DNA of 53,407 nt from Secundilactobacillus hailunensis (lineage in GTDB: Bacteria > Bacillota > Bacilli > Lactobacillales > Lactobacillaceae). A program made the position numbers and the translations under genes. Position 1 is the stretch's first letter; each line of letters opens with the position of its first letter. A model generated the notes under the pieces. That model was not told the DNA's origin. It saw nothing but the letters and a program-made list of their open reading frames with translations, and ran no database searches. The stretch is from positions 1 through 53,407 of the forward strand of contig NZ_BJDO01000013.1 of assembly GCF_005405185.1 (NCBI RefSeq), given 5' to 3'. This document shows, one piece after another, positions 38,771 to 43,962 of the stretch.

Positions 38771-38984
38771 TAGTTAAATAAATGAAACGCCGATGAAAAA
38801 GATCAGTAAATGACCCGTGACTTTCAGAAAGTATCTGGTTGATGAAAAGATACAGCAGACGGGAAGTTGAAGACACTTTTGAGGTGGGTAAGCAATTATC
38901 CGTGTCCAACGTTATGGATGAGTAAATTTAAGGTGGTACCGTGCGAAGCACCCTTGTGAAAACAAGGGTGCTTTTTATTTTTTT
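38771..38984 (+). promoter_or_regulatory. T-box leader controlling hisS-aspS, overlapping Asp/His specifier
   Basis: The leader shows all T-box parts: stem I with GATGAAAAAGATCAGTA (38792-38808), the specifier loop GAAGACACTTTT (38869-38880) opposite it, the T-box sequence AAGGTGGTACCGTG (38930-38943), and a terminator stem AGCACCCTTG (38947-38956) / CAAGGGTGCT (38963-38972) with a T run. In the register used by other T-boxes (GAA, codon, purine, lower helix CTTTT) the codon is GAC (38872-38874), Asp. CAC (38874-38876), His, overlaps it by one base. The downstream genes are hisS and aspS. Confidence 0.93.
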
Positions 38985-39019: not shown

Positions 39020-40306
39020 ATGCGTTATCAGCGACCAAAAGGCACTGCGGACATTCTTCCCGGTGAGAGTCAGCACTGGCAGTATGTTGAGGCAGTGGCG
39101 CGACAAGTATTCAGTAAGTACCGGTTCGAAGAGATTCGCACACCGTTATTTGAAAATTTTGAAGTGTTCTCGAGAACTTCTGGCGACACTTCAGACATTG
39201 TTACTAAGGAAATGTATGATTTTAAGGATAAGGGCGACCGTCACATCAGTTTACGGCCAGAGGGGACCGCTGGTGTTGTGCGGGCCTTTGTGGAGAACAA
39301 ACTGTATGGTCCAGAAGTTCAAAAGCCCTTTAAGACTTACTATATCGGGCCGATGTACCGTTATGAACGGCCACAGTCAGGCCGTCAGCGGGAATTCCAT
39401 CAAATGGGGATCGAAGCGTTCGGTTCCGATGAGCCAGCTCTAGATGTTGAGGTCATTGCGGTGGGGATGGATCTGTTTAAGCATTTCGGTATCTCTAACC
39501 TCCGTTTGGCGATCAACACACTAGGCGATAAGGAGACTCGAGATAATTACCGGCAGGCGCTGATCGACTATCTGGAACCGCACTACGATGAACTGAGTGA
39601 AGATTCTCAGATTCGCTTGCACAAGAATCCGCTACGGGTACTGGATAGTAAGGATAAAAAGGATAAGCAGTTCGTGGCGGATGCGCCATCGATCCTAGAT
39701 TATCTGACACCTGAAGCTAAGGCTCATTTTGACCAAGTAAAGAGCTTGCTGTCAGCTATCGGTATTGACTACGTGGTCGATTCAACCATGGTGCGAGGTC
39801 TGGACTACTACAACCACACCATTTTTGAAATCATGGTTGATTCAAAGGCGTTAGGTCATGGCTACACCACGGTGTGTGCCGGTGGTCGTTACAACGGCTT
39901 GGTCGAAGAATTGGGCGGCCCGGAAGTTTCCGGTGTTGGGTTTGGCCTAGGTATGGAACGCTTGATCTTATTGATGGAAGCTGAAGGGGTCAAGTTCCCT
40001 GAAGAACATCATTTGGACGCCTATGTCGTGGGCATTGGTGATGAAGCCAACGCACCAACGTTAAAGGTGGTTCAAGCGCTGCGTCAGCAGGAATATTCAG
40101 CTGACCGCGATTACTTAGCTCGTAAACCCAAGGCGCAGTTCAAAACGGCTGACCGCTTAAGTGCTGCTTACACGCTGACTCTGGGTGAAAAAGAGTTAAC
40201 GACCAATACGATTCACGTTAAGAATATGAACTCTGGTAATGAAGTTTCAGCACCGTTAGACGATGTGATGACCGATTTCGCCAGTGTCATTAAAAATATT
40301 GATTAA
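39020..40306 (+). CDS. hisS: Histidyl-tRNA synthetase
   Basis: Class II synthetase charging tRNA-His. The 428-residue protein has motif 2 ([19 protein letters not shown]), the HisRS signature [11 protein letters not shown] near 264-275 and motif 3 GFGLGMERL, followed by the C-terminal anticodon domain. AAAGGGAG precedes the ATG. It is the first gene after the T-box leader and is followed by aspS after 12 bases. Confidence 0.97.
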
Positions 40307-40318
40307 AGGGAGAGTAAG

Positions 40319-42112
40319 ATGAAGCGAACAACATATGCCGGTCTGGTGGACGAAAAATATCTTGATCAAGATGTCGTCCTCAAGGGCTGGGTTCAAAAGC
40401 GCCGTGATTTAGGCGGTTTAATATTTATCGATCTACGCGATCGCGAAGGCATCGTTCAACTGGTCTTCAGTGAGGAATTTGATAAGGATGCATTAGCCGT
40501 TGCTGACCAGCTGCGGAACGAATACGTCATTGAAATTAAGGGTCACGTGGTACCACGGGCCGAACACGAAGTTAACGAGAAGATGCGTACCGGTAAGATC
40601 GAAGTGCGGGTATCTGAAATCAACTTGTTAAACAAGGCTAAAAACCCGCCATTTTATATTCAAGATGGTATTAACGTTTCTGACGATCTGCGGTTGAAGT
40701 ACCGTTATCTGGATCTGCGTCGGCCAGAAATGCAACGTGGTCTCTTAATTCGTAACCGGATCACCCAATCAGTTCACAGTTACTTTGATTCTCAGGGCTT
40801 CATCGATATTGAAACGCCTGATTTGACTAAGTCAACGCCAGAAGGTGCCCGGGACTATCTGGTGCCTTCACGGGTCTATCCGGGTCATTTCTACGCTTTG
40901 CCACAATCACCACAACTGTTTAAGCAGTTGCTGATGGGTGCCGGCTTTGACCGTTACTACCAAATCGCCCGTTGCTTCCGTGACGAAGATCTGCGTGGTG
41001 ACCGTCAGCCAGAATTTACCCAAATCGATATGGAAACCTCCTTCTTGGATGCTGAAGAGATTCAAGATCTGACTGAAGGTCTGATTGCTAAAGTCATGAA
41101 GGAAACCTTAAACATTGACGTTAAGTTACCGTTCAAACGGATGGACTGGGATGAATCGATGGCTCGCTTTGGGACTGACCAGCCAGATGTCCGTTATGGC
41201 ATGGAATTAAAAGACTTAGGCGACTTAGTGAATAATCTCGGCTTTAACGTCTTTAACAAAGTGCTTGATGACGGTGGCCAAGTTAAGGCAATCGCCGTTC
41301 CTGGCGGTGCTGATAAGTACTCCAGAAAAGACATCGACAAGTTCGTGGAGCATATCGAACGCTTCGGTGCTAAGGGCTTACCTTGGTTGAAGGTCACTGA
41401 AGACAACTTTACCGGCCCAATTGCTAAGTTCTTCAAGGACAACGCTGAACTGTACAAAGCCATTACGGAACGGACCGGCGCTAAGCCTGGTGATCTCCTG
41501 TTATTCGCCAGTGATTCCAGCCGAGTGGTTGCCCAAACTTTGGACTACCTGCGGCGGACAATTGCCAAGGAACTTGGTTTGATCGATGAGTCGAAGTTTG
41601 CCTTCCTGTGGATCGTGAACTGGCCACTATTCGATTACGATGTGGACTTAAAGCGCTGGGTTCCAGCCCATCACCCATTCACCATGCCAAAAGCCGGTGA
41701 CGAACATTACTTGGACGAAGGCGAAGATCCGCATAAAGCCTACGCGCAAAGTTATGACATCATCTTAAACGGTCTGGAATTAGGTGGCGGTTCGATCCGG
41801 ATCCACACCCGTGACCTGCAAATGAAGATGTTCAAAGCCCTCGGATTCACCAAAGAACGGGCCGAAAAGCAGTTTGGTTATCTCCTAACCGCTTTGGATT
41901 ACGGCTTTCCGCCTCATGGTGGTCTGGCAATCGGCTTGGATCGGTTTGCCCGCTTGTTAGCTAAGCGCGGTAACATCCGAGACGTCATCGCCTTCCCTAA
42001 GAACTCTAAGGCTGTTGAACCATTAACATCTGCACCAACCACGGTTTCAGACAAGCAATTGCAAGATTTAAGCCTGTTTGTAACCAAGGATGACGATAAA
42101 AAAGATAAATAA
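40319..42112 (+). CDS. aspS: Aspartyl-tRNA synthetase
   Basis: Class IIb synthetase of bacterial type (597 residues). N-terminal OB anticodon-binding domain (1-105), class II core with [20 protein letters not shown] (motif 2), the bacterial GAD insertion (about 285-420), and motif 3 [13 protein letters not shown]. The ribosome site AAAGGGAG is like that of hisS. Cotranscribed with hisS under the T-box. Confidence 0.97.
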
Positions 42113-42217: not shown

Positions 42218-43540
42218 CTACTTGATGATTTTATCATCCGTTTCAGGTCCCCAAATGAAGATGACAGCGGCCGCAATAATGGCAATTACTGCAATGCCGT
42301 AGAAGAGAAACACGGTTGAAAAATGGGTGATTACAATGGTGACGACTGAGGGCATCAAAACGTTTAATAGCTTGGAAACACCGTTGGCAATACCGGCGCC
42401 ACGGAAGCGGTGACTGGTTTCAAACAATTCGTTGGTGTAGATGCTGACCACGGTTGCCATTAGAATATAGAGGGTTACTGTCAGCAAAAAACCGTTTAGT
42501 AAGATACCCACCGTAGTGGTCTCATAGGCATAAGCAAACCCTAGAATAGCGACGGCAATAAAGGCGCTGCCAATTAATTTTTTCCGGCCAGTCTGGTCTA
42601 CTAGCAGGGCACCAATGGCACAGCCAATTGGGGCACCCAGCATCATGATGGCAGAAAAGCCGATGGAACTGACAATATTAATGCCGCGTTTCAGCAGTAA
42701 CGTTGGCACCCAAGTGGAGAAGGTATACTGGCAAAGCAGGGTGGCACTGACAGCAACAATTGCAATAAACAAGCCTTTGGCAAAGCTAATGTGGATGACA
42801 GATTTATTTTTATCTTCTAACTCACCATCATCGTAAAGCCCGCGGGTCGTGAGCTGTTTAATAATGGCGTTAGCCTCTTGAGTCCGGCCCTTAGTCAATA
42901 GCCAGCGGGGTGATTCAGGAAAATGACGACGGGCAAACCACAGGATCATGGCCAAAATCCCTAACAGCAGAAACATTGACCGCCAGCCGAATTTCGGAAT
43001 CACGAAGGTGGCAATCAGTAAGGTGATCGGTGCACCGGTGTTGGCGATGATCGCGGTTAATCCGGACCAGTGACCGCGACGTTTAACTGGCGCAAACTCA
43101 TTGACAACGGCATAACTGGTGACAATTTCGGCACCCAGACCAGTGGCAGCAAACAGCCGGCAGATGATCAGTGTGATCATATTCGGTGCAAAGGCGGCTA
43201 AGAGGGTAAACGCGCCAAATAGCAACAAATTATACTGATAAGATTTTTTGCGGCCATAAAAGTCGCCAATATACCCGGAAATTAACGATCCGAGGAACAG
43301 TCCTAAAAAGCCGCTGGATAAGAAGAGTGAACCCTGTGTAACGGTGGCAAAATGGGATGCAACCATGGCGCCATTGATGGCACTGGCCACGTAAACGTCA
43401 GCAGCGTCCAGCATGATGCCAGCGCCGGCTAATCCAAATACTTTGTAGAACAAAGGCGTTTCGCGAGCGGAATTAAGCTGTGTTTCGAGGTTAAGTGAAC
43501 TTGAACTGATGCTATGAGAAGTAACGGTATTAGAAGCCAT
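42218..43540 (-). CDS. MFS transporter (sugar/metabolite transporter subfamily)
   Basis: A 440-residue 12-helix permease. The loop 2-3 motif (GDFYGRKKS) and the PESPRWLLTKGR segment before the central loop are typical of the sugar porter / aromatic acid:H+ symporter side of the MFS. The substrate is unknown. ATG 43540 is chosen by AGGAGG upstream; the earlier reading from 43603 lacks a ribosome site. The gene lies alone downstream of a T-box leader, so its expression should follow charging of one tRNA; that suggests transport of an amino acid or related compound. Confidence 0.93.
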   Translation of the reverse strand: MASNTVTSHSISSSSLNLETQLNSARETPLFYKVFGLAGAGIMLDAADVYVASAINGAMVASHFATVTQGSLFLSSGFLGLFLGSLISGYIGDFYGRKKSYQYNLLLFGAFTLLAAFAPNMITLIICRLFAATGLGAEIVTSYAVVNEFAPVKRRGHWSGLTAIIANTGAPITLLIATFVIPKFGWRSMFLLLGILAMILWFARRHFPESPRWLLTKGRTQEANAIIKQLTTRGLYDDGELEDKNKSVIHISFAKGLFIAIVAVSATLLCQYTFSTWVPTLLLKRGINIVSSIGFSAIMMLGAPIGCAIGALLVDQTGRKKLIGSAFIAVAILGFAYAYETTTVGILLNGFLLTVTLYILMATVVSIYTNELFETSHRFRGAGIANGVSKLLNVLMPSVVTIVITHFSTVFLFYGIAVIAIIAAAVIFIWGPETDDKIIK

Positions 43541-43675
43541 ATGTATTCCTCCTAAAGATAGATGAATGATGTGTTTTTGTACCTGTGTATGGGCTAAGGG
43601 CACGAATGGATGCGCTGATGAATACTAGATACTGCGATTTGGCGAATAAAAATTCCCCCTTATCTGAAATAAATG

Positions 43676-43962
43676 TAAAATAAAACGTCCTTCGAAAAAA
43701 TTCGAAGGGCGCAATAGTATGCACGGTACCACCTTGATTTGTTGTCCATAAGACAACCTCAGCGGATCTAACAATGCTTAAATCCGTCGGCCAGATAATG
43801 GTGGTCACCACGAAATCCCAATAAACAATTATGGCTCAAAGCCTACTTTTAGTTCTAGATGCCATCCGTTTGCAGCCACTACGGACTCTCTAAGCACATC
43901 GAAGGAACTTACTCTGCTTATTCACTCTGTTTATCATTGATTTTTAATTATTCTTTAATTTA
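43676..43962 (-). promoter_or_regulatory. T-box leader of the MFS transporter, apparent Val (GTA) specifier
   Basis: On the minus strand: the stem I segment CAGAGTAAGTTCC (AGTA at 43913-43910), AGAGAG (43891-43886), and the specifier side AAAGTAGGCTTTGAG with GTA at 43846-43844. The antiterminator core is AAGGTGGTACCGTGC (43735-43721). The terminator is a CGCCCTTCGAA / TTCGAAGGACG hairpin (43711-43686) with a T-rich tail. Aligning the specifier side with the hisS leader base by base places GTA where GAC sits, followed by a purine. The UGGU bulge would pair with discriminator A73, which Val tRNAs have. Confidence 0.85.

Follow-up and report, generated by a model that had tools for sequence, protein, structure and literature searches.

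A T-box leader with a GAC specifier and an overlapping CAC triplet upstream of hisS-aspS in Secundilactobacillus hailunensis

We analysed a window of 53,407 nucleotides from Secundilactobacillus hailunensis (contig NZ_BJDO01000013.1, positions 1 to 53,407), the genome of which comprises 2.7 Mb in 154 contigs. On the forward strand of the window, hisS (39020-40306) encodes a histidyl-tRNA synthetase of 428 amino acids (TIGR00442, 510 bits; NCBIfam cut-off 287) that is 100% identical to the HisRS of Secundilactobacillus silagei (locus L176), and is followed by aspS (40319-42112), which encodes an aspartyl-tRNA synthetase of 597 amino acids (TIGR00459, 757 bits; NCBIfam cut-off 374). Upstream of the two genes, a cmscan with the T-box model RF00230 placed a T-box leader, from Stem I to the antiterminator, at 38784-38958 on the same strand (78.1 bits, E 2.6e-17, model positions 1-219), and the whole-genome search with RF00230 placed it at the same site. 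The T-box that the initial annotation had proposed in front of hisS-aspS was thereby recovered, with both genes over their NCBIfam cut-offs and the leader under the curated (gathering) cut-off of RF00230, which is 93 bits. Because of this score, a gathering-level scan of the window lists no T-box. Among the 40 T-box matches listed in the genome, 29 lie below the Rfam cut-off and 11 above it, so that annotation by cut-off would miss 29.

The leader carries the hallmarks of a class I T-box, namely an AGTA loop in Stem I, a GAC specifier, a UGGU bulge and a terminator, all on the forward strand. Below the specifier loop, the 5' strand of the lower helix (AAAG, 38798-38801) pairs with its 3' strand (CTTT, 38876-38879; RF00230 alignment and structural call), and the homologous helix covaries in hisS leaders. 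The 5' side of the specifier loop reads ATCAGTA (38802-38808, with the AGTA motif at 38805-38808; RF00230 alignment), and its 3' side reads GAA-GAC-A (38869-38875), as placed by the RF00230 alignment, the structural call and the covariance model R2 (L071, 59.4 bits). Within GAAGACACTTTTGAGG, which begins at 38869, GAA occupies 38869-38871, GAC 38872-38874, A 38875 and C 38876, and the string GACAC spans 38872-38876. The RF00230 alignment puts GAC in loop columns ahead of the lower helix and C 38876 in a paired column. The specifier codon in the canonical register is GAC (Asp, 38872-38874), and an overlapping CAC (His, 38874-38876) appears two bases on, its last base being the C of the covarying pair that closes the helix. 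Both registers agree with the initial annotation, and specifier extraction from the Rfam covariance search placed GAC in the specifier loop and not elsewhere. The UGGU of the antiterminator bulge, the partner of the tRNA 3' end, lies at 38934-38937 within AAGGTGGTACC, which begins at 38930, and an intrinsic terminator hairpin of 13 pairs followed by a T run is found at 38945-38974 (one site, against a mean of 0.1 in shuffles). As read from the sequence, AAGG at 38930-38933 is able to face CCTT in the 5' arm of the terminator, a predicted competition. Folding of the leader beat 200 of 200 shuffles (z -3.0). The RNA upstream of hisS-aspS is a real T-box, and an ordinary one of a known kind.

For comparison with relatives, 225 hisS leaders were examined after one duplicate had been dropped. 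They came from a named set of 80 genomes (the best 80 of 313 relatives), an order sample (90 loci, 148 genomes), a class sample (27 further loci, 61 genomes) and a sample of family f11, which is probably Bacillaceae (28 further loci, 41 genomes); the samples may overlap in species, and the window's own species is counted twice, as L071 and L176. Specifiers were called in 204 leaders, 9 were not called and 12 were without a T-box motif. A plain pairing-score caller misread many leaders, at first L071 and L176 among them, which R2 reads as GAC-A-C, so the counts rest on R2, which made 182 of the calls, and on a motif rule able to find GAC or AAC only, which made 22, including doubtful calls for L201, L203 and L254. 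The 11 Lactiplantibacillus and the MAG L164 are absent from the R2 matches and were called by motif and by eye. Left out of the GAC and AAC counts were three R2 matches with other letters, namely those of L201 and L202 and the second one of L103, together with four further R2 matches that had no T-box motif behind them. At the loci with a called specifier, aspS stands behind hisS on the same strand in 203 of 204, with gaps of at most 796 bases. No T-box motif was found upstream of hisS at L177, L181, L182, L186, L191, L192, L204, L205, L231-L233 and L241; 10 of these 12 loci also have no aspS behind hisS within the fetched stretch, which for some covers only 900 bases.

GAC is conserved in the sampled Lactobacillaceae. 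A T-box was present in 79 of the 80 named genomes (the exception being L177), and all 79 were called GAC, 63 by R2 and 16 by the motif rule, in line with the view of the initial annotation that Asp is the likelier reading. A comparison of GACAC across lactobacilli had also been suggested there; the string was recovered in 64 of the 79, but the remaining 15 have GACGC, in which CAC is missing, so the two codons are not both kept among relatives. The GACGC leaders are those of all 11 Lactiplantibacillus sampled, three Levilactobacillus (L123, L129, L135) and the uncultured MAG L164, and the remaining Levilactobacillus sampled have GACAC.

These calls bear on the explanation that the leader senses histidine only, with CAC as the working register and GAC accidental, which we consider very improbable. 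hisS is the first gene of the operon, the hisS-aspS leader of MRSA is termed a histidine T-box in an excerpt of PMC7927825, and an excerpt of PMC2494555 states that T-boxes before tRNA ligase genes always have a specifier matching the ligase; a figure legend in the latter assigns a colour to a ligase encoded by the second gene of an operon whose T-box has another specificity, hisS-aspS being unnamed in that excerpt. However, a His-only sensor runs against the canonical register, CAC is lacking in 15 of the 79 named relatives and GAC was called in every one of the 79. Moreover, CAC occupies the canonical position in two His T-boxes of the window genome. One of them (L005, specifier region GAAACACC) precedes a hisZ-like gene, whose product, with 255 bits, falls slightly short of the 272-bit cut-off of TIGR00443 (hisZ), and the other (L007, specifier region GAATCACA) precedes an ABC transporter permease gene. 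Both share the T-box class and a CAC with the hisS-aspS leader, but they carry CAC in the canonical register and UGGA in the bulge, whereas the hisS-aspS leader has UGGU.

A second specifier role for CAC was the main proposal of the initial annotation. According to this explanation, tRNA-Asp would read GAC, tRNA-His would read CAC in the +2 register with the closing G-C pair opened, and the leader would answer a shortage of either; if the shifted reading were true, two amino acids would be coupled through a single leader. In its favour are the agreement of the two codons with the two genes of the operon and the frequency of GACAC, which with 114 of 160 is the most common string among the GAC leaders; the idea is also in print. 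Excerpts of PMC5313534 present GACAC as typical of the T-boxes before hisS-aspS, which they take, with reference to Gutierrez-Preciado 2009, to read mainly Asp; an excerpt of PMC4342826 cites the same review for the suggestion that two alternative structures allow both tRNAs to be sensed. The initial annotation was therefore right to suspect that related cases had been described. As far as these excerpts go, the hisS-aspS T-boxes of bacilli and lactobacilli have the same operon, the same GACAC and the same Asp-versus-His question, with the species alone differing, and hisS2-aspS of L. parabuchneri is a direct parallel to the leader of the window. A precedent is the two-codon T-box of acetobutylicum in an excerpt of PMC4052509, which likewise has two overlapping codons at one specifier loop; both tRNAs are reported to be bound there in vitro and in vivo, whereas the window leader is known from its sequence and its CAC uses a helix base. 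Among other excerpts, PMC7778990 describes a procedure in which the specifier was first sought 2-4 bases from the bulge end and the discriminator was unused for His, and PMC2965389 covers hisS T-boxes with the codon unnamed. The dual-codon idea is thus an already published hypothesis, which our comparison weakens as far as sequences can speak to it. What is added here are the counts over relatives and the covariation of the helix, part of which may be in the 2009 review.

The covariation concerns the last base of CAC. Stem I was aligned for 42 hisS leaders chosen out of 128 confident calls, and the closing pair (alignment columns 17 and 109, the latter being base 5 of the string) was GC in 31, AU in 7, UA in 1 and other in 3. 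The four-pair helix had 96.4% standard pairs, against at most 61.9% for slid versions, and showed 39 two-sided changes where shuffles gave 10.7; because the caller used to select the 42 leaders rewards this pairing, the 96.4% is inflated, an effect that bears less on the variety of the pairs. RNAalifold recovered the same lower helix unaided. In the alignment to R2, which is itself a structure-fitted model, the closing pair of 140 GAC leaders was G-C in 105, A-T in 13, T-A in 5, G-T in 1 and C-G in 1, and was mismatched in 15 (A-C 9, A-G 3, A-A 2, C-A 1); in 42 AAC leaders aligned in the same structure-fitted way, it was G-C in 35, A-C in 4, and G-A, A-G and A-T in 1 each. Judged by this covariation, the last base of CAC has a structural role, as part of a covarying helix and not of the loop, which argues against its use by tRNA-His.

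The T-boxes of the window genome show how readily the same triplet arises. Of its 40 T-boxes, many of which could not be called, 15 were accepted as having C-ending specifiers; L008, L014 and L030 were read by eye, and L029 was given its second-best structural call, ATC, because its downstream gene resembles that behind the ATC leader L010. The 15 consist of the two canonical His leaders (L005, L007), the hisS-aspS leader and 12 others, in which the +2 triplet was CAC in four (L003, L010, L029, L037), CAU in three (L008, L014, L030) and neither in five (L002, L006, L011, L023, L025). The strings with CAC are TTCAC before pheS (L003; TIGR00468, over cut-off), GGCAC before a gene that matches glyQ over its first 33 residues (L037; TIGR00388, E 5.3e-12, a fragment and hence below cut-off) and ATCAC in two Ile leaders. 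By the logic of the initial annotation, the Gly and Phe leaders would also count as His-sensing. The GACAC string by itself is not beyond expectation among the C-ending specifiers of this genome, and the overlapping CAC looks largely like a by-product of T-box construction, because after a C-ending codon come the usual A and then the helix-closing C. This is a general trap, in that a C-ending T-box specifier often seems to overlap a His codon.

Loss of CAC among the relatives points in the same direction. Over all samples, the +2 triplet of the 160 GAC leaders was CAC in 114, CAU in 14 and neither in 32 (GACGC 15, GACAA 6, GACCC 4, GACAG 4, and one each of GACCA, GACCG and GACGA), and the 44 AAC leaders comprised AACAC (37), AACGC (2), AACAT, AACAG and AACAA (1 each) and a doubtful AACGG and AACCT. 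CAC was lost while GAC was kept in the two named genera, including 11 of 11 Lactiplantibacillus, and in further genera. CAC or CAU was not kept more often in AAC leaders (38 of 44) than in GAC leaders (128 of 160), the retention being alike (Fisher p 0.39, relatedness ignored). With a covarying helix base, the same triplet in Phe, Gly and Ile T-boxes of one genome and this loss, the claim of CAC as a second specifier is left unsupported.

The bulge is less decisive. The host tRNA-Asp has the anticodon GTC and G73, which by wobble fits UGGU, and tRNA-His, in the window genome as well as in genome G204 of family f11, has C73 and a G ahead of the acceptor stem. The discriminators that the initial annotation had assumed are thus those of the host, and its argument that UGGU suits tRNA-Asp stands, but the corollary that UGGU disfavours tRNA-His is weaker than stated. 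Taking hisZ-like T-boxes as a yardstick for His (30 loci fetched of 48 matches in 151 genomes, 29 with a T-box), we found the last base of UGGN to be A in 17, U in 7, G in 4 and C in 1, with CAC located as expected in 27 of the 29, including 7 of 7 with UGGU (L365 and L382 were ambiguous). By these counts, a His specificity can go with UGGA and is not precluded by UGGU.

In the hisS-aspS leaders, the same base was U in 150, C in 8 and A in 1 of those with GAC, one being misread as G (L268), and A in 31, U in 7 and C in 6 of those with AAC. All hisS-aspS leaders with UGGA come from family f11, which makes this change close to a single event. The 28 leaders of the f11 sample comprise AACAC (25), AACAG (1), AACAT (1) and GACAC (1, L271), with UGGA in 28 of 28. 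Since 27 of the 28 have lost GAC, Asp is not the reading in those 27, and CAC is mostly kept. Nearly all the f11 leaders (L244, L252, L260, L261, L269-L296) have AACAC, for which the canonical reading would be Asn, fitting neither gene. Their AACAC keeps a His reading possible in that family, and the loss of GAC with retention of CAC and with UGGA, the commonest hisZ-like form (17 of 29), counts in favour of a sensor of both tRNAs. Even so, for the leader of the window we regard sensing of both as unlikely, though worth keeping in view. It is also quite unlikely that an ancestral two-register NACAC lost one reading in some lineages (GACGC in Lactiplantibacillus, AACAC with UGGA in f11) and that the GACAC species use both. 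No mention of GACGC or AACAC was found in the literature searched, which comprised excerpts and excluded Gutierrez-Preciado 2009, Vitreschak 2008 and Saad 2013, and we claim no novelty for these variants.

Sensing of Asn by the AAC leaders, with AspRS also charging tRNA-Asn, was considered and dropped as an explanation of AAC, as 18 of 22 AAC genomes have AsnRS, although an AspRS might charge both tRNAs beside an AsnRS. AsnRS (TIGR00457) was over cut-off in 44 of 50 genomes, being missing from 4 of the 22 with an AAC leader (G068, G036, G172, G230) and from 2 of the 28 others (G228, G195), and GatB was over cut-off in 48 of the 50. Pattern scans for canonical His and AAC T-boxes gave mostly chance matches, the reversed control being about as frequent, and were drawn on only for a few known hisS leaders. 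For two leaders of the GC-rich family f32 (L251, L259), the call was AACGC together with UGGC, a combination that fits neither Asp nor His; their helix is all G/C and the register uncertain.

Taken together, the leader of the window is probably a transcriptional (class I) T-box that senses uncharged tRNA-Asp, with CAC as a by-product of a C-ending codon, the following A and the helix C. GAC at 38872-38874 would pair with the GUC anticodon of tRNA-Asp, the 3' end of this tRNA (G73-CCA) would pair with UGGU, and the antiterminator would form in place of the terminator. hisS and aspS would then be transcribed together, with HisRS presumably carried along with the Asp signal. Published work has assigned the specifier string to Asp as well as to His, and the present explanation largely favours one of the two. 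If the switch were Asp-only, His starvation alone would not raise HisRS, a consequence that counts against the Asp-only reading.

A second T-box lies in the window on the reverse strand (43702-43933, 79.2 bits). It precedes an MFS-type transporter gene (42218-43603, reverse strand; best NCBIfam match TIGR00895, below cut-off), and its specifier loop AAAAGTAG presents GTA (Val) in the canonical register.
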